DNA of 22,240 bases from a virus. The position numbers and the translations under genes are program-made. The notes under the pieces were generated by a model. It did not search any database and was not told the DNA's origin. It was given only the letters and a program-made list of their open reading frames with translations. Shown piece after piece: positions 5,486 to 22,208 of this stretch. Location: the IMG/VR virus record IMGVR_UViG_3300025127_000323, positions 1 through 22,240 of that record, one strand, 5' to 3'. The first letter of the stretch is position 1; each line of letters opens with the position of its first letter.

Positions 5486-6202
5486 ATGCCTTTACCAAAG
5501 ATTAGCACCCCGACATATGAGTTGGAAATTCCGTCAACGAAGAAAAAAATAAGATATAGACCGTTTTTAGTCAAGGAAGAAAAGATATTAATAATCGCTA
5601 TGGAAAGTCAATCTGACTCTCAGATAGCGAACGCTGTAAAAGATGTTCTCGCCAGTTGTGTACTCACAAAAGATATAAAGATAGAAGATTTATCAACATT
5701 TGATATCGAATATCTATTCTTAAATATTAGAGGTAAATCTGTTGGTGAGGATGTTGAAGTGATGGTAACTTGCCCAGATGATAATAAAACAAAAGTTCCA
5801 ACTTTAATTAAACTTGATGATATAAAAATTAAAACTTCAAAAAATCATAGTAAGGATATAAAATTAGATGATAATTTAACCTTAAGAATGAAATATCCAT
5901 CTATGAAAGAGTTTATTAAGTCAAACTTTAGTGTAGAAGGTATGAAACCTGAAGACACATTTGATTTAATTATATCTTGTATCGAACAGGTTTATAGTCA
6001 AGAGGAGTCATGGTCTTCTTCAGACTGTACTAAGGATGAGATGGATGAGTTTCTTGATCAATTGAATTCTACACAATTTAAAGAGATTGAGAAGTTTTTT
6101 GAAACAATGCCTAAATTATCTCACACATTAAAGGTAAAAAATCCTAAGACTAATGTTGTAAATGATATAAAATTGGAGGGACTGACTGCTTTTTTCGGGT
6201 AG
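5486..6202 (+). CDS. 26: gp26-like baseplate hub protein
   Basis: T4 gp26 takes part in baseplate hub assembly. The product is 238 aa (T4: 208). It begins with a short beta segment (PTYELEIPSTKKKIRYRPFLVKEEK, given here in part as IRYRPFLVKEEKILIIA) and a helix with SDSQIANAVKDVLASCVL. These are followed by LSTFDIEYLFLNIRGKSVGE and VMVTCPDD, a combination typical of the T4-like baseplate family found in cyanophages. The second half has an acidic helix region around residues 150-215 and ends TAFFG. It is followed two bases later by gp51, as expected for the hub module. The upstream 33 bases are almost pure A/T with no clear Shine-Dalgarno. Confidence 0.8.
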   Translation: MPLPKISTPTYELEIPSTKKKIRYRPFLVKEEKILIIAMESQSDSQIANAVKDVLASCVLTKDIKIEDLSTFDIEYLFLNIRGKSVGEDVEVMVTCPDDNKTKVPTLIKLDDIKIKTSKNHSKDIKLDDNLTLRMKYPSMKEFIKSNFSVEGMKPEDTFDLIISCIEQVYSQEESWSSSDCTKDEMDEFLDQLNSTQFKEIEKFFETMPKLSHTLKVKNPKTNVVNDIKLEGLTAFFG

Positions 6203-6204
6203 GT

Positions 6205-6390
6205 ATGGCTCATGAAGATCTTGAGTCATACTTTAAAACAAATTTTGCCTTGATGCAACACCATAAATATAGTTTGACAGAGCTTGAAAATATGATTCCT
6301 TGGGAAAGAGAAGTTTATCTATCCCTACTACATCAGTTCATTGAAGAGCAAAATCTAAAGGCACAACAAGAACAAGGTTTAAATGGATGA
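6205..6390 (+). CDS. 51: gp51-like baseplate hub assembly catalyst (61 aa)
   Basis: A small acidic helical protein containing SLTELENMIPWEREVYLSLL, the segment typical of phage hub assembly chaperones next to gp26 (comparable to small tail-assembly proteins that follow a gp26-like gene in many phages). T4 gp51 is larger, so this is the short cyanophage form. The ATG follows the gp26 stop after two bases, with GGGTAGG as a plausible ribosome-binding site within the end of gp26. It overlaps the next gene by eight bases. Confidence 0.7.
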   Translation: MAHEDLESYFKTNFALMQHHKYSLTELENMIPWEREVYLSLLHQFIEEQNLKAQQEQGLNG

Positions 6391-7759
6391 AGATCAAGTA
6401 GATCAATCTACAGAGAACACAGAAGAAAATCAAGAAAGCACTGGATCTAGAGAGTCTGAAAGATCTAAGAGAGAGAATAGTGTTTTCTCAACGATAGGTG
6501 GAGCTCGTCAAGTAAATGTAAATAGATTAGTAAGTAGCAGAACAAATCCTTTATTAGAAAGAATTGCTAGATTAGAATTAAATTTAGCAACAAGTAATAA
6601 AAATGTACAAGCAGTCAACTCTTCAACAGAGAGAAGTTTGATACAGATAAACACTTCGATAGTCGCTTTACAGCAAAGTTTGAAAGTAATATCCGATGGA
6701 ATGGATGTGTCTGATAAACTTGAGAAGATAAAAGATGCAAATGATAAAGCAAGAGAGAGACAATTAGCAGAACAAGCACTTCAAGATGGTAAAGAGCAAG
6801 TAGTTGAGAAGAAGATGCAATCCGCATTAACAGCACCCCTTCGGAAAATTGGTACTAAAGCAAGATCAATTCTTGCAAGTTTAGTTGAATTTTTCAACGT
6901 AACTTTGCTTGGATTCATGGGATTAAAGACTGTTGAACTCATATCTGCATTAGCAAGTGGAAATAAAGAAAAACTTGAAGAGGTAAAAGAAAGAATATTA
7001 AAACAATTAAGTATAGCAGGTGGTATATTCTTAGCAATAAATGCAGGATTTGCCATAGCTTTGAGATCACTATTACGATTAGGTGCCTACATAACAAAGG
7101 TTGCAGCAGCAAATTTATTAAAAAAACCGATTGATTTACTGCTTAACTTAGTAACCTCTGGTAGATTTGGTGGTGCACGACCAGGTACTAATGTTCCACC
7201 TGTTGTTCCACCTGGTGGTGGAAAAGGGAACACTGCTGCAGGAGGACCAACTCCATTAGGTTATGCACTCTTTTATGGTACTGCTTTTTTAGATGAATTA
7301 AGTCAAAGTCAAGGTCAAGTTCCAGAATCATTAGTAACTGCTGGATTAAGAACAGGTTCATTTGGTCTTACATTCAATACAATATTAAGATTAGCTAGAG
7401 GTGCAAGAGGAGGAGGTCCTGGTGCATTTATTGGTAGTCTTCTTTTAGATCAGTTTCTTTTTAAAAATCTTTTTGATCCAATAGGTGACTACGCTGGTGG
7501 ACTCATAAGAGACCAATTTGGTATGGCACCTGTGATAGACAGTATGAGTCAATACAATCAAGGTACTCAAAATTTGTTTACTCAAGGTGACGAAGATAAG
7601 ATAAATGTTTTTGTTGTTGACGGAGAGGAGAGAGCATCTATATCTAGTGTGCCTGATGGTAGTAATGATGCATCAATAAATCCAGGTGTATCCAGTTCAA
7701 ATCCAGATAATCCATATATTTTAAATTCAATCATCGAGTATAATATAATCGGAGTATAA
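6383..7759 (+). CDS. Coiled-coil/hydrophobic tail protein A, tape-measure candidate
   Basis: The 458-aa product has four parts. An acidic Ser/Glu-rich N-terminus spans about 1-45. A long coiled coil spans about 55-150 (heptads with LLERIARLELNLATSN and later EKIKDANDKARERQLAEQAL). Two long hydrophobic helices cover about 165-240 (SLVEFFNVTLLGFMGL; SIAGGIFLAINAGFAIALRS). The final part, about 265-458, is Gly/Pro-rich and partly hydrophobic. Position between gp51 and gp27 is where T4 carries genes of the hub and tape measure (27, 29). Coiled coil plus membrane-active helices is what a tape-measure protein has. It shares its core pattern with the next gene. It could also be another hub protein. 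No match to a named family is claimed. Confidence 0.75.
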   Translation: MDEDQVDQSTENTEENQESTGSRESERSKRENSVFSTIGGARQVNVNRLVSSRTNPLLERIARLELNLATSNKNVQAVNSSTERSLIQINTSIVALQQSLKVISDGMDVSDKLEKIKDANDKARERQLAEQALQDGKEQVVEKKMQSALTAPLRKIGTKARSILASLVEFFNVTLLGFMGLKTVELISALASGNKEKLEEVKERILKQLSIAGGIFLAINAGFAIALRSLLRLGAYITKVAAANLLKKPIDLLLNLVTSGRFGGARPGTNVPPVVPPGGGKGNTAAGGPTPLGYALFYGTAFLDELSQSQGQVPESLVTAGLRTGSFGLTFNTILRLARGARGGGPGAFIGSLLLDQFLFKNLFDPIGDYAGGLIRDQFGMAPVIDSMSQYNQGTQNLFTQGDEDKINVFVVDGEERASISSVPDGSNDASINPGVSSSNPDNPYILNSIIEYNIIGV

Positions 7760-7760
7760 T

Positions 7761-8969
7761 ATGAAATTAGCAACAATAAAATTAGATAGGATTAATAAAG
7801 CAGTTGATGGTTTATCATCAGTAATTAGAAGTACGAATATTATTGCATCTGAAATTGGTAAAAAAGTTAGGGAATCAAATCAAAGGTTAAGAGAAAGAAT
7901 ATCAAATGCAAATAAAAACTTTCAAAGAAGATTAGAGGGATCAAGAAAAAAACAAAGAGAAGAATTAATAGAGGCACTTGGAATTGGTGGTGCGATGCGT
8001 AGAACAGGTCAAGTTATAAGAAATACAGCGAAAGGATTTTTAGGTAGAATTATGGAGTTTTTGTCTGTAGTTTTGATTGGATGGGCTATTATTAATATTC
8101 CAAAAATAATCAAAGGTGCTCAAGGTTTAATCGACAGATTAAGAAAATTTTACAAGGTAGGTGAGCAACTCGTTACAGATTTAACTCAATTTTTAACAAA
8201 TTTTGGTAAAGAGTTAAGTGAACTTTTTTCAAGTTTGATACAATTTGACTTCAAACCGTTGCAAGATAAGATCGGTTCAATTATGATTAAACTACAGAAT
8301 GATTTTAGGACTGTTGAAAGAGGTTTAATAAAAGATGTTAGTGAACTTATTGATTTAGATGAAGAGGATATAGTGAACATGATGGGTAGCGAAACAGATC
8401 AAGTTAAAGCGATGGATGAACAAATATATGAACAAGGTATTGATAAAGAAAAGTATGATGAATTACCTGATAGTATTAAAACTGCAATTAGAGTACTGGC
8501 GAAGAGAAATTTAGATCAAGGCAAACCCATGTTTGATGAATTTGATTTAGAAGATTTGCAGAAAGCAGAAAGTGTATCTGATTTTGAGCAAGTTTTAAAA
8601 GATAATAGATTTGTTCTTAAAGAGATAGATGGGGTACAATATTATGTACCACCAGAATTAGTTAATACTAAGAGTTTAGGAGATGAAGTAAAGGATGCAT
8701 TTGAGAAATACATGGAAGGTCCTGACTACAATGATAAAGAAGAAAGTAATATTGACGGAAAGAGAGTTTCATTTAATCCTATAAAAAATGATCGTAATTT
8801 TGAGGTAGATAAGAAATCAAAGGATGTTTTCATTCCATTCAGTAATATATTCAATAATACATTTATGAAACGACAAAATAATTCAGATTCTTTTATAGCA
8901 TTAAATAGTATTGACAGTAATATAGGTTATGCTTCGTTTGAAAATCAAATGTTAAATTCAATAGGATAA
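7761..8969 (+). CDS. Coiled-coil/hydrophobic tail protein B, tape-measure candidate
   Basis: The 402-aa product starts with a basic coiled coil (about 10-75, many Arg/Lys, e.g. KKVRESNQRLRERISNANK). It continues into a hydrophobic helix (GRIMEFLSVVLIGWAIINIP, about 92-112). A long helical stretch with KFYKVGEQLVTDLTQFL follows, and the rest is an acidic, largely soluble C-terminal half. The pattern coiled coil, then E-F-L/F-x-V-x-L-x-G, then a long helix repeats that of the preceding gene, so they may be ancient duplicates sharing the tape-measure function. The ATG follows the previous stop by one base with GGAG eight bases upstream, and its own stop overlaps the gp27 start (TAATG). Confidence 0.75.
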   Translation: MKLATIKLDRINKAVDGLSSVIRSTNIIASEIGKKVRESNQRLRERISNANKNFQRRLEGSRKKQREELIEALGIGGAMRRTGQVIRNTAKGFLGRIMEFLSVVLIGWAIINIPKIIKGAQGLIDRLRKFYKVGEQLVTDLTQFLTNFGKELSELFSSLIQFDFKPLQDKIGSIMIKLQNDFRTVERGLIKDVSELIDLDEEDIVNMMGSETDQVKAMDEQIYEQGIDKEKYDELPDSIKTAIRVLAKRNLDQGKPMFDEFDLEDLQKAESVSDFEQVLKDNRFVLKEIDGVQYYVPPELVNTKSLGDEVKDAFEKYMEGPDYNDKEESNIDGKRVSFNPIKNDRNFEVDKKSKDVFIPFSNIFNNTFMKRQNNSDSFIALNSIDSNIGYASFENQMLNSIG

Positions 8970-10303
8970 TGGCTGCAATATCACCATCAAGATATGATGA
9001 AGTAACAATCGAATCGGCTGATGGTAAATCTACCACAATTGATTTGAGATTGGGTCTTGCATCTTTTTTATATTTTGAGGATTTATTATCCCCAACTATC
9101 ACTGCACAAATGGTAATTATTAGTGCAGAGGGTGTGGTTTCTAATAATGATAAGACAGATAAAAAAGAATCTTTGTATAATGGATTACCAATTAGAGGTG
9201 GTGAAAGAGTTTCAATCAGAATCGCAGGTAATTCGGAAAACAATGCTGGACTTAAATTTGATACTCCTGAGACTTATTTGTACGTTTCAAAAGTTTCAAA
9301 TGTTATAAGAGATGGTCAAAAAGAATTATTCGTGTTAAACTTAGTATCAAAGGAAGCAATAACCAACGAATTGACTCACGTAACAAGAAAATTCAATAAG
9401 GATATTCCAGTAAGCGATAATGTCAAAGATATTTTAAAAAATGATTTAAAAGTTAAACCAAACAGATTTAAAAAAAATATTGATAGAACTAGTAATAAAT
9501 TAGGATTTATAGGTAATTTAAAAAAACCCTTTAAAATATTAGTATGGTTGGCATCTAAATCTTCATCTACTATTAAAGATAGCATAGCAGGATATTTCTT
9601 TTATCAAACTAAAGACGGGTTTCATTTTAGATCAGTTGATAATCTAATAAGAAAAGGAGTTAAAAAACCTGTTGCGATTTTTACTCATAAACAGTTTACC
9701 AATAAAATAACTGAACGAACTGATTTTAATATACTATCCTATAGTATAAAAAGAAATAATGATCTTTTAAAAAAGTTAATCATAGGACAGTATTCTAGTT
9801 TTACAGTATCTTTTGATCCTTATACAGGAGGTTTTTCAAAAGTTGCTGATGGTATTTTTTCACTAAGTGATGTTGCTATCAGTAAAAAACTTAAAAATTT
9901 AGGTGATGTTGTTGAAGTTCCTAAAATATTATCAGAGACAGGAGAAACAACGGGGCAACTGCCCAGTAGAATTATCTCTCTAATTAAAGATGTTGGAACT
10001 TTAGATAAAGAAGCAAGTGCAGATGCAAATTCTGAGGCAAATATTTATCAAAAACAATCCATATTAAGATATAATATTCTTTTTCAGCAGATGGTTTACA
10101 TCGTGACTCCGTTAAATACTGAAGTATCTGTTGGAAATGTAGTTGAATTGAAATTTATAGGAACACCAGAGGGTCAAGATTATGATAGACAGCAGAGTGG
10201 TTTTTACCTAGTTAAAGAATTATGTCATTCATTTGATCCAGAAAGATCTGTTACATCTATGACCGTTGTTCGTGATACATTTGGGGAGTTTGCAAAAGAA
10301 TAA
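8969..10303 (+). CDS. 27: gp27-like baseplate hub protein
   Basis: T4 gp27 trimers form the hub ring that connects the tube to gp5. The 444-aa product has the hub fold's opening: acidic strands with a SYDEVTIES-like start, LRLGLASFLYFEDLLSP, and the strand ETYLYVSKVSNVIRDGQKEL. Next comes a typical helical linker with VSDNVKDILKNDL. The centre has the landmark PFKILVWLASKSSS followed by AGYFFYQTKDGFHFRSVDNL, seen in hub proteins of T4-like phages. The C-terminal part (GQDYDRQQSGFYLVKELCHS) is the OB-like domain used to hold gp5. T4 gp27 has 391 aa. It overlaps its neighbours by one base on each side (TAATG), and gp5 follows directly, as expected for hub partners made in equal number. Confidence 0.85.
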   Translation: MAAISPSRYDEVTIESADGKSTTIDLRLGLASFLYFEDLLSPTITAQMVIISAEGVVSNNDKTDKKESLYNGLPIRGGERVSIRIAGNSENNAGLKFDTPETYLYVSKVSNVIRDGQKELFVLNLVSKEAITNELTHVTRKFNKDIPVSDNVKDILKNDLKVKPNRFKKNIDRTSNKLGFIGNLKKPFKILVWLASKSSSTIKDSIAGYFFYQTKDGFHFRSVDNLIRKGVKKPVAIFTHKQFTNKITERTDFNILSYSIKRNNDLLKKLIIGQYSSFTVSFDPYTGGFSKVADGIFSLSDVAISKKLKNLGDVVEVPKILSETGETTGQLPSRIISLIKDVGTLDKEASADANSEANIYQKQSILRYNILFQQMVYIVTPLNTEVSVGNVVELKFIGTPEGQDYDRQQSGFYLVKELCHSFDPERSVTSMTVVRDTFGEFAKE

Positions 10304-12357
10304 TGGATAATTTAAATTTTAAAACTAATTTTGTTGGAAAAGATGGATTTGTCTGGTGGGTTGGACAGATACCAGATCAAGAAGCATGGCAGACTCAAAT
10401 TGATGAGGGTAAAGGTAGTTGGGGAATAAGATATAAAGTTCGTATCATGGGATATCATCCATATGATTCTGGTATTTTATCTGATGATGATTTGCCTTGG
10501 GCACAAGTATTATGCCCACCAGGTAATAGTGGATCTGCTGGACGTATGGAAACAATTAAACTGGCTCAAGGAGACACAGTTGTTGGATTCTTTCTTGATG
10601 GTCACAGTGCTCAAATTCCAATTATACTAGGTGTATTTTGTAAGACTCCAGAGAGTGAGAGAGCATCTACAGATACTCCATCACCATTCGGAAATTTCAC
10701 TCCATATTCTAAAACAATAACAAAGGATCCTGATTTTGCAATGCAGTCTGTAGGATCAAACTCGCAAGGTACAGGTAATGAAAAAGATAAAGTTCAAGAA
10801 TCAAATGCTAATATAACTCAGTCGCAAGCAGATGAACAAGGTAAATCAACCCTTACTTCAAGTGCTGGTGCAACCATCGAAAATTGTGGTGGTGCAAGTC
10901 CGATTAGTGGTATGCAAGTTGGTGTAAAAAATCTAATGCATGATGTGAAAACTATTAATGCAAGATTAGGTGAGGGAACGGAATTTGCTAGAGATGCAAT
11001 TAAAAAGAGAATATCATCTGCTTCTCAAGATATTACAGGTAAAGCAAGTAATTTAGTAAGTGGTATGGTTAATGATACATTTAATAAGTTAGGACCCTTA
11101 TCTAATGCAGGTATGGGTGGTTTGTATAGTAGTGTAAATGCTAAAATAACAGCAGCTACAGGTAATCCAGCAATAGGACATCTTGCTGGCGTAGCATCAC
11201 AAGTATCAATGGCTGCACCTCTACAAATAGCAGAAAATTTAATAGGTTGTCTTGCTAATAATATTGTTGCAGATTTGGGTAGCAACATTGAAGATATATT
11301 ATCATCTGTTGTTGATAACGCTGTGAATTTTGTTGACTGTGTTGCAGATCAAACTATAGGTGCAATTACTAATTCAGTAATAGGAAAAGTTGGTGATGGA
11401 ATGGATCAAGCACTGGGTGGATTAGATAAAATTATGCAGTTTGTTGGTGGGGGTGCAGGAATTGGTGGTAAAGGTTTTGTTGATAATTTAATTAGAAATA
11501 GCACATCATCAATCGCTGGTGCTGTTGGATTGAAAGGTTGTAATGAACCTGTTAAAAAAGAAGTGGGCTCATGTAGATATGTTCTAGGTTATGGTCCTGT
11601 GTCTGGTGGTGATGCAGATCTTAGTAAGATTATTAAGAATGCAAATTTAGCAGCATCACTATCTACTGCTGCTAGATTAACTGGATTCCCACTTGATGGT
11701 ATTCAAGATATTGCTGGTGCATTAGATATATTCAACTCTGATATGAAAACACCTGGATTTAAGAGTGCGATCAGTGATTGTTATTCTGGTTTACCTACAG
11801 TTTGTGAACCACCTAAAATTAAAATATTTGGTGGTAATGGATCTGGTGGTGAAGCGATTCCTATTTTTGGTAGAATACTGGGAGATTCAAGATATAGAAC
11901 AGGAAGTATCATTGATATCAGACTTACAAATCCAGGCAATAATTATACATTCCCTCCATTTGTAGAAGTTGTTGATAATTGTGGGCAGGGGTATGGTGCA
12001 ACTGCTAGAACTACTCTCAAAGATGGAAAAATAGATCAAATTTATATTGTGACTGAGGGTGAAAATTACCCTGTTGCAGATCAGAATGAACAGGTGGTTG
12101 AAAGTGTAAATATAATTTTTCCTGGTGGTGGATATACAGATGGTGATCAGGTAACTGATAATTTTGGAAATCAATATGATGTCACAGTTCAACAGGGATT
12201 GATTACCAAAGTTAAACCCATAACTCAAATTAAAGTTGATGATGTTCCAGTTCTTACCGCAATCGGATCTGGAAATGGTGCTATACTTAGTGCTAACTTA
12301 AATGATAGACCTGAGTTCCAAGGTGAAGTAAAGCAAGTTATAGATTGTGTTTCATAA
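10303..12357 (+). CDS. 5: gp5-like baseplate hub protein with OB-fold and no lysozyme domain
   Basis: Residues about 1-125 form the gp5-type OB-fold that binds the gp27 ring: FVWWVGQIPDQ, RYKVRIMGYHPYDSG, DDLPWAQVLCPPGNSG, and DTVVGFFLDGHSAQIPIILG. T4 gp5 has the same order but continues into a T4-lysozyme-like domain. Here no Glu-Asp-Thr lysozyme motif is seen. Residues about 200-500 are an Ala/Gly-rich helical region with many cysteines (11 in the whole protein). From about residue 535 two repeats follow, each with Gly-x-Tyr turns (IRLTNPGNNYTFPPFVEVVD; SVNIIFPGGGYTDGDQV), also seen in the 1093-aa protein. No beta-needle follows the OB part in this gene; it seems to be encoded by the next one. 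The 684-aa size exceeds T4 gp5 (575). Confidence 0.8.
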   Translation: MDNLNFKTNFVGKDGFVWWVGQIPDQEAWQTQIDEGKGSWGIRYKVRIMGYHPYDSGILSDDDLPWAQVLCPPGNSGSAGRMETIKLAQGDTVVGFFLDGHSAQIPIILGVFCKTPESERASTDTPSPFGNFTPYSKTITKDPDFAMQSVGSNSQGTGNEKDKVQESNANITQSQADEQGKSTLTSSAGATIENCGGASPISGMQVGVKNLMHDVKTINARLGEGTEFARDAIKKRISSASQDITGKASNLVSGMVNDTFNKLGPLSNAGMGGLYSSVNAKITAATGNPAIGHLAGVASQVSMAAPLQIAENLIGCLANNIVADLGSNIEDILSSVVDNAVNFVDCVADQTIGAITNSVIGKVGDGMDQALGGLDKIMQFVGGGAGIGGKGFVDNLIRNSTSSIAGAVGLKGCNEPVKKEVGSCRYVLGYGPVSGGDADLSKIIKNANLAASLSTAARLTGFPLDGIQDIAGALDIFNSDMKTPGFKSAISDCYSGLPTVCEPPKIKIFGGNGSGGEAIPIFGRILGDSRYRTGSIIDIRLTNPGNNYTFPPFVEVVDNCGQGYGATARTTLKDGKIDQIYIVTEGENYPVADQNEQVVESVNIIFPGGGYTDGDQVTDNFGNQYDVTVQQGLITKVKPITQIKVDDVPVLTAIGSGNGAILSANLNDRPEFQGEVKQVIDCVS

Positions 12358-12362
12358 TCACG

Positions 12363-12370
12363 AATAAATA
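12363..12370 (+). promoter_or_regulatory. Putative late-promoter element before the needle gene
   Basis: AATAAATA lies between the gp5 stop and the ATG at 12384 and matches seven of eight bases of the T4 late core TATAAATA. The start would be only 13 bases away, giving a very short leader, so it may be a partial internal promoter or a coincidence. Confidence 0.35.
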
Positions 12371-12383
12371 TTTAAAAAAGACT

Positions 12384-13196
12384 ATGGTATATCAACCCGA
12401 TAACGCATATACAAAGAAGTATGGATATCAGTTTGGGCAATTCATAACAAATCCAGTGCAGCATCTTGCTGGACCAAATGTTTTTACTCAGTACTCTTAC
12501 ACAAAGAAAGAAAATAAAAAATATTCTATTCAACATGGGGAGAACGGAAGAGTTGAGTTGAATAATGATAGATCAATTGATATAATCGCTGGTGCTGATG
12601 GAGAAGATGCAAATATACTTGTTCATAATAGAAATGGAACTATAGACATCAGTGTGGGAGAAAATGGTGAAGTTAGAATAAACGCACAGAATGTTACATT
12701 TCATGCTGACAATATAATGAAACTTGAGGGTAAGAAGGTACAAGTTGAAGCAACTGATGAATTTTCATTACAAGCACCATTTGCACATAGTAGTGGACAT
12801 AGAGGAAATTTAGTTCCACTTAGTTTTCTAGATGTTGCAACTTCTGGACAATTTGTAGGACCTGATATAATAAGCAAATTTAAAACAGAAGGTGTTGCAA
12901 AGTTAGCAGGACTTAGTGAAAAATTAAATGATGTTGCACCAGTCCTTACACAAAAACTTGGTGGTCTAACTGATACACTGGGTGATGTTCAAGATCAGTT
13001 GGGTGGAGCACTTGAAGGTATTCAAGGACAATTACCTAGCATGCAAGCAGATTTAATGAATCTCAGCAGCACTGTGAATCCTGTTTTGAAAGACATCGCT
13101 ACCTCACCTGGCGTGACTAATCTTGGTGAAGCTTTAAAGGCTAATTCTGGTGCATTTGCTAATTTTGGACAAGGATTAGTACCGACAGGATATTAA
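12384..13196 (+). CDS. Beta-needle protein resembling the gp5 C-terminal spike
   Basis: The open frame extends back to a TTG at 12345, but the ATG at 12384 is preferred because it avoids overlap with gp5 and begins a normal soluble start (MVYQPDNAYTKKYGYQ). The product is 270 aa. Residues about 45-140 are short alternating beta strands with Gly/Asn turns: GENGRVELNNDRSIDIIAG, RNGTIDISVGENGEVRI, NIMKLEGKKVQVEATDEFSLQ. This is like the gp5C/VgrG triple beta-helix needle. A second part (about 170-260) is amphipathic helix (KFKTEGVAKLAGLSEKLND, LGGLTDTLGDVQDQLGG). It directly follows the gp5-like gene, so I infer that it supplies the membrane-piercing needle missing there. Start and stop fit the operon: the next gene begins two bases after its stop. 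Confidence 0.7.
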   Translation: MVYQPDNAYTKKYGYQFGQFITNPVQHLAGPNVFTQYSYTKKENKKYSIQHGENGRVELNNDRSIDIIAGADGEDANILVHNRNGTIDISVGENGEVRINAQNVTFHADNIMKLEGKKVQVEATDEFSLQAPFAHSSGHRGNLVPLSFLDVATSGQFVGPDIISKFKTEGVAKLAGLSEKLNDVAPVLTQKLGGLTDTLGDVQDQLGGALEGIQGQLPSMQADLMNLSSTVNPVLKDIATSPGVTNLGEALKANSGAFANFGQGLVPTGY

Positions 13197-16488: not shown

Positions 16489-17784
16489 ATGGCAATTGCA
16501 CCAGTCAATAAGTTTCTATCTATTGCTGTTCCTGTAGCACCAGGCGAGCAGAAACTTTATGAAGTACCAACAGGTACTACTGCAATTTTGCTGTACGCAC
16601 AAGTATCTAACGTAGGAATCGGACAGACATATCCAACAGCGACTTTAATTCATAGAAGAGAATCAAGAAGCACAGGTAATAAAAGAGATATAAGAATTAT
16701 AAAAGATATTGAGATACCACCAAATGATGCAGCGATATTGATTGATGGTAGATTAGTATTAGAAAAGACTCCACTTACATTAGATAGATTATTCCTGAAA
16801 GGTGTACAGTCAGGAGTAGGAACAATAACAAATGTTGTTTATCATGAACCCACTGGTGTAGCCACAGTAACCACCATGAATGCTCACAATTTCAACGTGG
16901 GTGATCCAATTACAATGAGTGGTATTGCATTCACTTGTTCAGGGAGCACAGGAATTACAACAACAATATTCCCAGATCCACAGCAATCTTATGTTGTAGA
17001 TGAGATAACAAACGCAGTCGGAACATCAAGAACATTTACTGCAGTCATAGGAAGATCAAAAGGTTATCCACATTTTTATAATCCAGCAATACATTATTTT
17101 GTTCGTTCAAGAAGTAACGCAGTTACAACAAATACTGGAACACAATTTACACCTTCATTTGCAACTTATACAGGTGTGAGTGGTGAATTAGTCTTAACTT
17201 TAGGTGCTGGACATGGACTAAGAAGTGCTACAACAACTCATACTGCGACTAATGCGTTATACAGTCCAGTAACAGGGATCATGACTGTAACTGTTGCAAA
17301 TCATGGATTCTCTGCTACAGATAAAATTAAATTTGCAGATGGATCAATTACATTTACGTGTGCTCAAGATAGTCATGCATCAAATCATCCATATCCAAGA
17401 TCTACTGATTATCCTAGTGGCAAGTGGTTAAGTATATCAAATGTCACCACTAATACTTTTGAAGCTGTGGTTTTAGACACAATACCATCAACATACACAG
17501 GTATACACACTTTTGTAAGTGCAACTACTAATGGTATAAGTAGGGCATATTCAACTGTTGGAATCGCAACTGATTCAATTATATTCACTTGTACTCAAGA
17601 TGGTAATTCTACAGAACATGCATATCCAAGATCTACCGATCCATATGCAGGATTGAATATATCAATAGCCTCAACTACTACAACCACTGCAACAGTGAAT
17701 GTGGGAACTTCACCCAGTGGTGGATTAGTCGCACCATTACAAATGGAGTTTATAGCAAGTATCCTAGAAAATAGTACTGCATAA
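16489..17784 (+). CDS. Beta-repeat virion protein with FTC..D..YPR motifs (431 aa)
   Basis: I do not recognise a named family, but similar proteins are typical of cyanophage structural gene clusters. Residues 1-115 form a compact N-terminal domain ([21 protein letters not shown] through a hydrophobic [13 protein letters not shown]). Afterwards a motif repeats. Degenerate copy: [13 protein letters not shown] (about 146-160). Strong copies: SITFTCAQD...HPYPRSTD (about 286-308) and SIIFTCTQD...HAYPRSTD (about 363-385), each followed by Thr/Ser-rich strands. Each Cys (about 148, 291, 368) sits in the same place of its repeat. The protein is short of helices and probably forms a stalk or adhesin. 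Its TAA overlaps the ATG of the next gene (TAATG), so it may be a partner or tip of the collagen-like fibre protein. The start is preceded by an AT-rich sequence without Shine-Dalgarno. Confidence 0.75.
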
Positions 17785-20636
17785 TGACTCAAGGAAGGAA
17801 GTCTCAGCGATATTTAAGTGGAAGATCCAAAATTATTGGATTTTCAGGATTAAGCACGGATAGACATCTTTATATTGAACCAGGTCAGGTTGAACCTAAC
17901 TTGGGATTTCCTGGTGAAAAGAATTTACCAGCTTCAGGAACTTATTACAAATTAATTACAGTTCCAAATGGGAACACATATGATAGATACTGGCAGGAAG
18001 ATAGTCCTGCAACTCTTGTAAATGGAATCACAGTATTTGATGAAGGCACGTTAATAGGAACAGCAAATACTGTATCAAAACTAAACTTTGTTGGTTCAGC
18101 AGTCACAGCAACTGCGAGTGGAACAATATCTACAATTACAGTTACACCTGTATCAATATCAACTCTTGCACCACCTAATCCAAATTCAGGAGATTTATGG
18201 TGGGATAGTGATGAGGGTGAACTAAATGTTTATTATCAAGATGTTAATAGTGCACAGTGGGTAATAGCAAATAGTGGAATCGGAACTACTGCAGGAGGTG
18301 GTGGAGGTGGTGGATCAGGTGGTGCTAACGTAACAGTATCATCAAATCCACCAACAAGTCCAACTCCAGCAAATGGAGATTTATGGTGGGATAGTGACGT
18401 AGGTGAACTATTCATTTATTATACTGATGGTGATAGTAACCAATGGGTGGAAACTTCTGGAGGAAGTGAAACTGTTACTATATCAGACAACGCCCCGTCA
18501 AGTCCAAATGATGGTGATTTATGGTGGGAAAGTAATACTGGATCTTTAAAAATATATTATAATGACGGAGACAGTCAGCAGTGGGTAGATTCAAACGCAG
18601 GAGTTCTTAGTTCATTAGCATCATTTACAGCATGGAGCACAAATAGTGCTGGTATTCACACCACAGTAAACGTTGGTATTGGAACAACCATACCACAACA
18701 AAATCTTGAGGTAACTAGTACTTTTGGAGTTACGAGTCCAAATTATAGTAATTATTTAAGAATTAATACTGGTGATACTAATGGTGCAACAATTTTTTCA
18801 CGACAGACCACTGGTGCATATAAGAGATTACGATTAGATGCATCTGATTTTCATATAAGAAATAGTCCAACTAACTCTGATGATTTTACAAATTCATTAT
18901 CAATTAGAGAGAATGGTAATGTTGGTATACATTCTACGTTACCTGCGGCTGTAATGGATATTCGTGGTGACACTGTGGTCACAGGAATTACAACCCTTGG
19001 TAACACTATCGTCGGTAGTGCTACAACAGAACTTATAGTTCAGGGTGACGCTCGTGTGACTGGTATTTTGTCTGTAGGTACAGGCACATTAGTGATAACA
19101 GACACAGGTATTAATGCAACAGGAGTAATTACTGCTACTGGATTTAAAATTGGAGCTGGTGTGACTGTATCAGAAGTAGGTAACTTTGATATTACAGGTA
19201 TAGTTACAGCGACTAAATTTGTTGGTGATGGATCAGGTTTAACAAACCTTTCAGGTGGTGGAGGGGCAGGTGCTCAAGGTGCTCAAGGTTCTCAAGGATC
19301 TGCAGGATCAAATGGTGCAACAGGTGCTCAGGGTGCACAGGGTGTAGCTGGTACTGCTGCATCACAAGGTGCTCAAGGTGCAACGGGTGCCACAGGTGCT
19401 CAAGGAGCACAAGGTCATCAAGGTGCCACAGGAACTGGTGCTCAGGGTGCTACAGGATCTACAGGTGCTCAAGGTGCAACAGGATCCACGGGAGCACAAG
19501 GTGCTACAGGAGCTACAGGTGCTCAAGGTGCACAAGGACATCAAGGAAATACTGGATCAACAGGAGCACAAGGAGATGCTGGTTCCAGAGTATATACCGT
19601 TACAAATAGTGGATCTGGTGCGTATGTGATAGATGGATCTAATAATCCAACACTTAATTTACTGAGGGGTTTTACATATACATTTAACATTAACGCTTCA
19701 GGTCATCCTTTTTATATTAAAACAGCACAAACCACAGGTACAGGAAATCAATATACATCTGGTGTCACTGGGAATAGTACGCAGTCAGGAACTTTAACAT
19801 TTGCTGTTCCATATAATGCCCCATCAACTTTATATTATATCTGTCAGTATCACAGTGCTATGAAGGGCACTATATCAATATCCGACGTGGGTCCAACTGG
19901 TGCTCAAGGTGCTGCTGGTGCTCAAGGTGCTACAGGAGCTACTGGTGCTCAAGGTGCTACAGGAGCTACTGGTGCACAAGGTGCTGTTGGTGCTCAAGGT
20001 GCTCAAGGTCATCAAGGAAACACTGGTGGTGGAGGATCTACGGGTGCTCAAGGTGCTACAGGAGCTACAGGTTCTCAAGGTGCTACTGGTTCAGGAGGAT
20101 CAACAGGATCTACTGGTGCTCAGGGTGCTACAGGAGCTACTGGTGCTCAGGGTGCTGCTAACACAGGTGCCCAAGGTGCAACGGGATCTACAGGTGCTCA
20201 AGGTGCTACTGGTTCAGGAGGATCAACTGGTGCACAAGGTGCTTCTGGTCCTGCTACAGTGCCTCAAATTAAAAAAGCAGAAAATACGTCTCAGCAATAT
20301 GTTTATTCTGGTACTGGTTGGAATACTAAACTTTCATTAACATTAAGTAATGTAGATAATGATTCACACGTTTTAATAGTTTGGCGTGGTGAAATATTTT
20401 GTGGTGGTGGTAATAATAGACAATCTTCAATTCAATTAACTGGTGGTAGTTTTGGTGTTGGAAGCTCTGGTGGTAACAGTACTGATCAGAGTTGGGTTGG
20501 TTTTGGTGATGTAGTCATTGATGTTGGTGGCGGTACAAGTAGAACTTATAGTATTCAATGGAAGAGGAATCAACATGCTTCATATGCTATAATCAGAAAT
20601 GCCTACTTATTTGTTATGGAAATGAAACCAAATTAA
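17784..20636 (+). CDS. Collagen-like tail fibre with inserted cupredoxin-like domain (950 aa)
   Basis: Domain order: an N-terminal anchor region (1-130); three repeats of [21 protein letters not shown] type starting at residues 136, 198 and 244; fibre-shaft beta repeats ([35 protein letters not shown]; about 290-490); collagen-like tract 1 (494-600); cupredoxin-like domain (601-702); collagen-like tract 2 (703-824); and a C-terminal beta domain (825-950) with [20 protein letters not shown], probably a trimeric tip. The cupredoxin-like part has SGHPF (H641) and [14 protein letters not shown] (C687, H690, M693), consistent with type-1 copper ligands though the spacing is unusual. Collagen tracts are Gly-Ala-Gln/Gly-Ala-Thr triplets with regular QGHQG inserts. 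Role: distal adhesive fibre, inferred from architecture; no signal peptide is expected. Confidence 0.8.
18189..18590 (+). repeat. Three GDLWW repeats in the 950-aa fibre
   Basis: Units start at 18189, 18375 and 18513. The first two share GGAGATTTATGGTGGGATAG exactly, the third is diverged (GGTGATTTATGGTGGGAAAG). Each encodes Gly-Asp-Leu-Trp-Trp-(D/E)-S followed by a strand with Tyr-Tyr and a Gln-Trp-Val end. Spacing is 62 then 46 codons, so they arose by duplication with later change. They are probably small beta modules that join the fibre to the virion or to one another. Confidence 0.8.
19263..19583 (+). repeat. Collagen-like Gly-x-y tract 1
   Basis: Codes for residues 494-600 of the 950-aa fibre. 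Nearly every third codon is glycine, mostly in GAQ, GAT and GST triplets, with an occasional break (GTAAS, GTGAQ). Two [10 protein letters not shown] blocks occur. DNA runs repeat GGTGCTCAAGGTGC(A/T) imperfectly. Confidence 0.9.
19584..19889 (+). other. Cupredoxin-like domain inserted between collagen tracts
   Basis: Codes for residues 601-702 of the 950-aa fibre. It starts at SRVYTV, has SGHPFYI (His641) on one strand, and [20 protein letters not shown] on the next. The loop is CQYHSAMKG (Cys687, His690, Met693). That is the ligand order of plastocyanin-type copper proteins, where one His is followed far downstream by a Cys-His-Met loop. Spacing Cys-x2-His-x2-Met differs from plastocyanin (Cys-x2-His-x4-Met). 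Copper binding is predicted, not shown. Confidence 0.75.
19890..20255 (+). repeat. Collagen-like Gly-x-y tract 2
   Basis: Codes for residues 703-824. It has GAQ/GAT triplets, a [11 protein letters not shown] block and GSGGSTG interruptions. Repeated DNA words such as GGTGCTACAGGAGCTAC occur several times and are shared with tract 1 and with the next fibre gene, giving possible recombination partners. Confidence 0.9.
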
Positions 20637-20822: not shown

Positions 20823-22208
20823 ATGACTGGTATAGATTTTCCTTCCAATCCTAGTGTAAATCAACAATTCTCTGCATTTGGTAATGTATGGGTTTGGAAT
20901 GGATCATCTTGGAGAAAAGTAAGTAGAACAGCAGTTGTAGGTGCTCAAGGTAATACAGGTCTGAGTGGATCGACAGGAGCACAAGGTGCAACAGGTCCGC
21001 AAGGTGCTTCTGGTTCAGGTGCTCAAGGTGCTGCTGGTCCAACAGGACCCACTGGTGGTGCAGGTGCTATAGGAAATACTGGTGCTCAAGGTGCTGCTGG
21101 ATCAGGTTCTACGGGTGCACAAGGTGCCCAAGGACATCAAGGAAATACTGGTGCAACAGGTGCTCAAGGTGCTGCTGGTGCTCAAGGATCCGCAGGTGCT
21201 CAAGGATCCGCAGGTGCTCAAGGATCCGCAGGTGCTCAAGGTGCTGCTGGGGCTCAAGGTGCTGCTGGTTCAGGTGGATCTACAGGAAATACAGGTGCCC
21301 AAGGTGCCCAAGGACATCAAGGAAATACTGGTGCAACAGGTGCTCAAGGTGCTGCTGGAGCTCAAGGGGCTGCTGGAGCTCAAGGGGCTGTAGGTGCACA
21401 AGGTGCAACAGGTGCACAAGGTGCTGCTGGATCTGCTGGATCAACTGGTGCTCAAGGTGCTGCTGGTGCTCAAGGTGCTGCTGGTGCTCAAGGATCTGCT
21501 GGTGCTCAAGGACATCAAGGTAACACTGGTGCTGGTGGATCAGGTGGATCTACAGGTGCTCAAGGTGCTACAGGTGCTACAGGTGCTCAAGGTGCTACTG
21601 GATCTGCTGGATCAACTGGTGCTCAAGGTGCTCAAGGACATCAGGGACAATCTGGAACCAATGCAGGTCAAGGTGCTCAAGGTGCTACTGGTGCTCAGGG
21701 TGCTTCAGGAACAAACGGTGCTCAGGGTTCCACAGGATCTGCTGGATCAACTGGGATCCCATCAGGTGTTATACTAATATGGTCAGGTGCTTCAAACAAT
21801 ATTCCCTCTGGATGGGTATTATGTAACGGTTCTAATAGCACTCCCGATTTGAGGGATAGGTTTGTTATTGGTGCTACGAGCAGTTATGCAGTGGGTGCTC
21901 AGGGTGGTTATACTGATACATTCATACCAGAGCATACTCATACATATAGCGGTTCTGTTAGTGGTGGTACTCACAATCATACTTACGTTGACCAATATGT
22001 TGTAATTAATAATGGATATAGACCTTGGCCAGCAAGTAATAATGACTGTGCTGCAAGAAATGTAAATGTAGGTGGGGATGGAAGTCACTCTCACTCATAC
22101 AGTGGAACTACTGCAGTTAACACTGGTGGTGCTGCAATTACAAACGCACAAAGATCAGGTAGAAACTTACCACCATACTATGCACTATGCTATATCATGA
22201 AGACATGA
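20823..22208 (+). CDS. Collagen-like tail fibre with C-terminal tail-collar domain (461 aa)
   Basis: Residues 1-39 hold a small base module ([28 protein letters not shown]). Residues 40-311 are a long Gly-x-y tract, mainly GAQ, GAA, GAT and GSA triplets. From 311 the phage tail-collar domain follows: [48 protein letters not shown], ending [14 protein letters not shown]. This is the classical fibre tip of phages. Three His-x-His pairs (H371/H373, H384/H386, H422/H424) recall metal-coordinating His pairs of T4 gp37/gp12 tips, though a site is not proven. It likely binds host surface structures. It is the only gene in the window with the collar domain and would be the best guess for the receptor-binding tip. 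It starts eight bases after the 51-aa gene. Confidence 0.9.
21120..21178 (+). repeat. 59-base direct repeat, copy 1 (180 bases from copy 2)
   Basis: The 59 bases 21120-21178 are identical to 21300-21358. They encode [18 protein letters not shown] in each copy. The offset of exactly 180 bases (60 codons) keeps frame, so the intervening stretch can be lost or gained without breaking the gene. Confidence 0.9.
21177..21230 (+). repeat. Three exact 18-base tandem repeats
   Basis: The unit GGTGCTCAAGGATCCGCA is present three times in a row without a single difference, coding (Gly-Ala-Gln-Gly-Ser-Ala)3. Identity also at third codon positions points to very recent duplication by slippage. Confidence 0.95.
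21300..21358 (+). repeat. 59-base direct repeat, copy 2
   Basis: Identical to 21120-21178. It includes the AAGGACATCAAGGAAATACT word coding KDIK in another frame but QGHQGNT in the real frame. Two copies in one gene give a 180-base in-frame recombination target. Confidence 0.9.

Follow-up and report, generated by a model that had tools for sequence, protein, structure and literature searches.

The cell-puncturing protein gp5 of bacteriophage T4 is made as a single chain, with a lysozyme between base and needle, and is then cut. The locus described here, in which two genes and no lysozyme stand in the corresponding place, raised the questions of whether it encodes the same device in divided form and which protein, if not the spike, opens the wall. 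The window, i.e., the whole stretch of DNA analysed, is a 22,240-base virus record with 36% G+C and represents a fragment of a genome. Its baseplate genes grouped it with the T4-like cyanophages. The window gp26 showed sequence identities of 70% to P-SSM2, 69.5% to S-SRM01 and 67% to S-SKS1, and the protein at the gp27 position showed identities of 46% to S-SRM01 and 41% to P-SSM2. The genes for gp26, U2, U1, the hub protein, the gp5 homologue and the needle described below lie on the plus strand. The gene order was gp26 (5486-6202; a baseplate hub protein matching Pfam T4_baseplate, E 8e-74), a 61 aa gene, U2 (6383-7759, 458 aa), U1 (7761-8969, 402 aa), the gp27-position hub protein (8969-10303, 444 aa), the gp5 homologue (10303-12357, 684 aa) and the putative needle (12384-13196, 270 aa), followed by fibre genes. 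The coordinates of the last two genes had been given correctly in the initial annotation. The hub protein matched PHROG 350 ('tail protein', E 1e-85), and its sequence did not match T4 gp27 significantly; its assignment as gp27 rests on its syntenic position and the PHROG match. Farther downstream, 17784-20633 and 20823-22205 encode collagen-like tail proteins, the former of which also showed a weak cyclophilin-like match.

The product of 10303-12357 matched PHROG 1922 (E 2.4e-106, residues 6-596), and its N-terminal domain (residues 16-112; 10348-10638) was found to be an OB-fold. Alignment of the aligned family to T4 gp5 with hhalign covered T4 residues 8-118 (Prob 90%, E 1.5e-6), and the family profile matched the PDB entries 9f4a (E 4e-7) and T4 1k28 (E 0.009). 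Ten of the 37 family members matched Pfam Gp5_OB; the window protein itself was below threshold. The AlphaFold2 (AF2) monomer, with a mean pLDDT of 59.7, revealed the OB strands at residues 16-112, a disordered linker (116-198), long helices (200-378; 10900-11436) and a C-terminal β domain (505-670; 11815-12312), the last with pLDDT values of 72-86 and PHROG-matching stretches at 502-593. The 'NPGxxYT'-type repeats of this C-terminal region also occur in other phage structural proteins, and the chain ends at 12357 without a C-terminal β-helix. Foldseek searches with the model gave a P1 baseplate chain as the best match (prob 0.99, E 0.05), followed by OB/S1-type folds.

The long helices occupy the position at which T4 gp5 carries its lysozyme. 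As had been proposed, no lysozyme was found there: none of the 37 family members matched any hydrolase family in Pfam, and the T4 gp5 positive control yielded the OB, Phage_lysozyme, Gp5_C and Gp5_trimer_C domains. No lysozyme was present among the best Foldseek matches, and residues 120-684 of the window protein and its 36 relatives bore no resemblance to a hydrolase. The search for a hidden hydrolase in the middle region that the initial annotation had called for, performed with Pfam on 37 members and with AF2 and Foldseek, therefore returned nothing recognisable. A genome search with Pfam PF06714 was uninformative, as even the controls produced no matches. The middle region contained 23% Ala+Gly and six cysteines within residues 120-500. 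Six of the 11 cysteines of the protein (C195, C316, C346, C413, C501 and C682) were kept in 35-37 of 37 members, with Cys316 and Cys346 invariant, and this conservation held down to 23% identity; they could possibly form disulfides or metal sites. The window gp5 thus differs from that of T4 in that a long-helix, cysteine-conserved middle replaces the lysozyme. Cysteines were, by contrast, absent from the window's needle, U1 and U2. PHROG 1922 bears the name 'baseplate hub subunit and tail lysozyme', and matches to the family occur in 486 phage records, almost all of them from T4-like cyanophages. Because no hydrolase was found in the gp5 homologue or its 36 relatives while the control worked, the lysozyme half of this name is unsupported, and the 'tail lysozyme' label carried by hundreds of records is misleading. 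The protein belongs to the gp5 OB lineage and is not a tail lysozyme.

A spike of this kind had been taken to imply that another enzyme or simple force opens the peptidoglycan. This expectation was right in form but had overlooked U2 and U1, the two genes upstream of gp27. These proteins are paralogues in the window (hhalign E 1.3e-5), and their homologues carry a variety of hydrolase domains. Pfam identified M23 in 16 of 44 U1 proteins, in addition to M15, Phage_lysozyme, Amidase_3 and Amidase_5, and identified Phage_lysozyme2, Hydrolase_2, SLT and Phage_lysozyme in U2. Of the 49 contigs outside the window's clade, 38 had a U1 or U2 match to at least one of two profiles that we built (M23 and SLT-like). 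The HxxxD-type motif and HxH were retained in all full-length M23 matches. Neither profile matched U1 or U2 in the remaining 11 contigs, some of which have other hydrolases (L029, L040); in L040, the phage-lysozyme family itself lies within U1. Among isolated phages, the U1/U2 pair of S-CAM7 contained an SLT-like and an amidase/NlpC-type domain, and S-SRM01 and S-PM2 each contained a single M23 per genome, located in U1, the small lysozyme being encoded separately, at a distance of no less than 39 kb. On one contig (L054:3433-5492), U1 was seemingly split over two frames with M23 pieces in both, possibly by a frameshift or an assembly error.

The corresponding proteins are virion components in S-CREM2. 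Mass spectrometry of its virions yielded 73 peptides for U2, 71 for U1, 25 for the hub, 40 for gp5 and 14 for the product of the next gene, which shows that all five are located in the particle (PMC10665884). We found an SLT-like domain in S-CREM2 U1 (E 2e-23). Taken with the virion presence, the domains suggest that U1 and U2 of most relatives do the wall cutting with interchangeable hydrolase domains and that they would act on the wall during entry. The lengths of U1 and U2 are suggestive of tape measures, although they are not proportional to the tail (1456 and 1565 aa with a 418 nm tail in S-CREM2, and 722 and 933 aa with a 138 nm tail in S-N03), and T4 gp29 did not match either protein.

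In the window itself, no such domain was recognisable in U2 or U1. An SLT_2 match in window U1 (E 0.14) was weak, was not repeated across the clade and was rejected. The window's clade comprises 16 contigs including the window, some of them near-identical, and its U2 (approximately 440-460 aa) and U1 (approximately 395-450 aa) are shorter than the proteins of relatives. The M23 and SLT-like profiles revealed no hydrolase in U1 or U2 of the 16 contigs, Pfam revealed none in U1 of 12 of them, and none was present in the scanned proteins of a 43 kb clade contig (L011). P-SSM2 gave the same picture: U1 and U2 contained no recognisable hydrolase, searches of the complete genome (252 kb) for M23, phage lysozyme, SLT and NlpC were negative, and no hydrolase was among the families listed (25 of 36) when 87 further proteins were scanned with Pfam. 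By the families searched, the complete P-SSM2 genome (L092, L097-L101) likewise lacked a recognisable endolysin. As this phage does lyse its host, its genome must encode some unrecognised hydrolase, and the absence should not be over-read. A Subtilase (S8) fragment was observed among the fibre genes of the 43 kb clade contig (L090:196-1059), and P-SSM2 has one likewise (PSSM2_297). In the window's clade and in P-SSM2, the wall could be passed by an undetected enzyme, by an enzyme encoded elsewhere or by force.

Profile searches could have missed a cryptic hydrolase that has diverged too far, be it in the gp5 middle (residues 200-500) or in the second half of U1 or U2, which is divergent. P-SSM2, with the same module and no recognised hydrolase, lends weight to this explanation because its need to lyse the host means that unrecognised hydrolases exist in the group, and the six nearly invariant gp5 cysteines could mark a functional site. 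The model of the gp5 middle, however, consists of long helices, and Foldseek placed nothing resembling a lysozyme near it. The second halves of U1 are poorly conserved and gap-rich, and no conserved catalytic motif of any known class was apparent in them. We regard a cryptic hydrolase as rather unlikely, while rating it above the other alternatives. Slightly less probable is that the window's clade and P-SSM2 lack a virion hydrolase and that force suffices, perhaps aided by wall enzymes of the host. The empty searches of U1 and U2 in all 16 clade contigs, of the 43 kb contig and of P-SSM2 agree with this explanation for the families searched; on the other hand, the clade contigs are fragments, diverged enzymes escape Pfam, and the all-Pfam scan of P-SSM2 extended to those 87 proteins and 25 of 36 families. 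The strictest version, in which these viruses carry no virion peptidoglycan hydrolase at all, the force of contraction alone crosses the wall and the needle works without either a lysozyme or a PAAR tip, appears improbable to us.

The second gene, 12384-13196, begins with ATG 26 bases 3' of the stop of the gp5 homologue, and its product belongs to PHROG 3363 (function unknown). An ATAAATA at 12364 was considered as a late promoter for this gene and rejected, as 6 matches were found against 10.7 expected. The initial annotation had described the product as a gp5C-like needle, and several observations make this likely. Residues 51-140 carry hydrophobic residues at every second position (p = 2e-4 against shuffles), by a measure on which T4 gp5C itself does not score. 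The AF2 monomer had pLDDT values of approximately 70-89 across residues 31-140, and intrachain strands were absent from residue 62 onward. The lack of an intrachain sheet is as expected of intertwined chains and thus supports, but does not prove, such an arrangement. The predicted intertwined β part spans approximately residues 46-147 (12519-12824), as judged from the alternation, the AF2 model and the Foldseek search of BFVD, in which cyanophage needles and gp5/VgrG proteins were the neighbours and the first match alone was significant.

Direct comparison with T4 was less informative. The strict T4 VxGxxxxx repeat was absent from the window needle, neither profile nor Foldseek searches of the PDB gave a significant match to a solved structure, and hhalign of the needle family profile with T4 gp5/gp5C produced no useful alignment; among the weak Foldseek PDB matches, T4 gp5 and other spikes recurred. 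Proteins at the same position in isolated phages were more telling. The S-CREM2 protein, to which the window family profile aligned weakly, aligned to T4 gp5 residues 384-519, the β-helix (E 0.006), and to 9f4a (E 5e-4). This protein, gp212 (L102:17270-18229), is annotated as an inner wedge protein and, judged by its sequence, is probably the needle. The S-SRM01 protein matched DUF2345 (E 2.5e-4), which we take to be the VgrG C-terminal domain.

That neither structure nor profile comparison linked the product significantly to T4 gp5C, together with the wedge annotation of the S-CREM2 gene, would also fit a short fibre or another baseplate decoration. The gp5 β-helix and DUF2345 matches of the same-position proteins argue against this assignment, as do the β alternation, the AF2 behaviour and the cyanophage needle and gp5/VgrG neighbours in BFVD, and we consider it more improbable than any of the explanations above. 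The product is likely a β-helix needle that is gp5C-like in function and a candidate member of the gp5C family. Its C-terminal extension of approximately 120 residues (12825-13193), which AF2 modelled with low confidence as helices at 148-253, is confined to the window's clade in the family alignment. Many other needles finish in a short amphipathic-looking helix. No PAAR gene was found in the 22 kb window, in the 43 kb clade contig or in complete P-SSM2; among the 13 records searched, PAAR exceeded the threshold in S-CREM2 and S-N03 only. The S-CREM2 gp215 (L102:19281-19625) is a PAAR-type tip.

The division of gp5 into two genes was confirmed relative to T4, but it is not a peculiarity of this virus, as the initial annotation had implied, since a large group of cyanophages shares the separate needle. 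A separate needle followed gp5 in 48 of 80 related contigs, several of the others ending inside or just after gp5, and was also present in the isolated phages P-SSM2, S-SKS1, S-CAM7, S-SRM01 and S-CREM2. Viruses of marine cyanobacteria thus commonly have this arrangement. Not every lineage shows the split: P-SSM7, ACG-2014d and similar phages carry the OB and β-repeats in a single chain, which in P-SSM7 and ACG-2014d has a helical-looking middle, and small forms of 223-277 aa contain little beyond the OB and β-repeats. The adjacency of both genes on the same strand might suggest that a single T4-like gp5 was split by a recent frameshift or by a mistake in sequencing or assembly. This is refuted by the conserved two-gene layout: each gene has a start and a stop of its own in dozens of independent contigs as well as in isolated phages, and both positions were detected in S-CREM2 virions. 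The probability of such an artefact or frameshift is negligible. Our search of the open literature turned up no previous description of this arrangement for T4-like cyanophages.

T4 gp5 is cleaved at Ser351/Ala352, and the mature device, (gp27-gp5*-gp5C)3, consists of nine chains (PMC3004832). As mature T4 already has separate gp5* and gp5C chains, non-covalent docking of the needle, which had been presented as a departure from T4, is not exotic (PMC3004832). The two genes can be viewed as encoding directly what T4 attains by cleavage, with no cut needed. The window layout resembles that of mature T4 in its OB-fold base, its likely β-helix needle and its three separate chains including the hub (PMC3004832).

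Taken together, we consider it probable that the device comprises a lysozyme-free OB base and a separately encoded needle, with wall cutting placed off the spike and mostly on U2 and U1. The hub, gp5 and needle genes would then make up the module for the central spike in a T4-like virus whose relatives include P-SSM2, S-SRM01 and S-SKS1. By homology, the hub (8969-10303) would hold a trimer of the lysozyme-free OB protein (10303-12357), which in turn may bear a needle trimer (12384-13196) non-covalently, so that hub, base and needle would form the three-chain layout that T4 reaches by cutting gp5. By analogy with T4, contraction would push the needle across the outer membrane. In most of the family, the peptidoglycan would be cut by the paralogous virion proteins U2 and U1 and not by the spike. 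In the window's clade, where both proteins are short and without a visible hydrolase, this step may depend on an unrecognised or elsewhere-encoded enzyme or mainly on force.

Comparison with other phages revealed related arrangements with some differences. P-SSM2 (PSSM2_014 to PSSM2_020) shares the gene order, the lysozyme-free gp5, the separate needle (174 aa there) and U1 and U2 without a recognisable hydrolase, but its needle lacks the helical extension of the window's clade and its gp5 is 32% identical to that of the window. S-CREM2 ORF208-212 (T4-like cyanophage cluster C) has the same order and a separate needle matching T4 gp5C, and differs in the length of U1 and U2, the SLT-like domain of U1 and the PAAR tip protein. 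The Anabaena myophage A-1(L) (hub gp15, spike gp25) likewise has an enzyme-free spike (PMC10966104). In this phage, which is not T4-like in size, assays located wall hydrolysis on a different protein of the baseplate (PMC10966104). Its enzymes are on the hub itself, whereas here they are on two genes upstream of the hub in relatives, with none visible in the window. The RaK2-like phages (CBB, RaK2) also have rearranged gp5 modules and baseplate hydrolases but differ in that the lysozyme remains in the spike polypeptide (PMC5259590, PMC3622015).

The locus therefore represents a genuine and conserved version of an established device. Hundreds of cyanophage genomes label the gp5 gene 'tail lysozyme', and no lysozyme was found in the roughly 40 members scanned with Pfam, so that the finding corrects a widespread annotation. 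S-SRM01, with enzymes, and P-SSM2, with none visible, provide a natural comparison for asking if wall enzymes are at all necessary for contractile phages. The likely wall-cutting proteins are the products of two neighbouring genes that are usually called hypothetical or endolysin, and this points to where the enzymes that open cyanobacterial walls may be sought.
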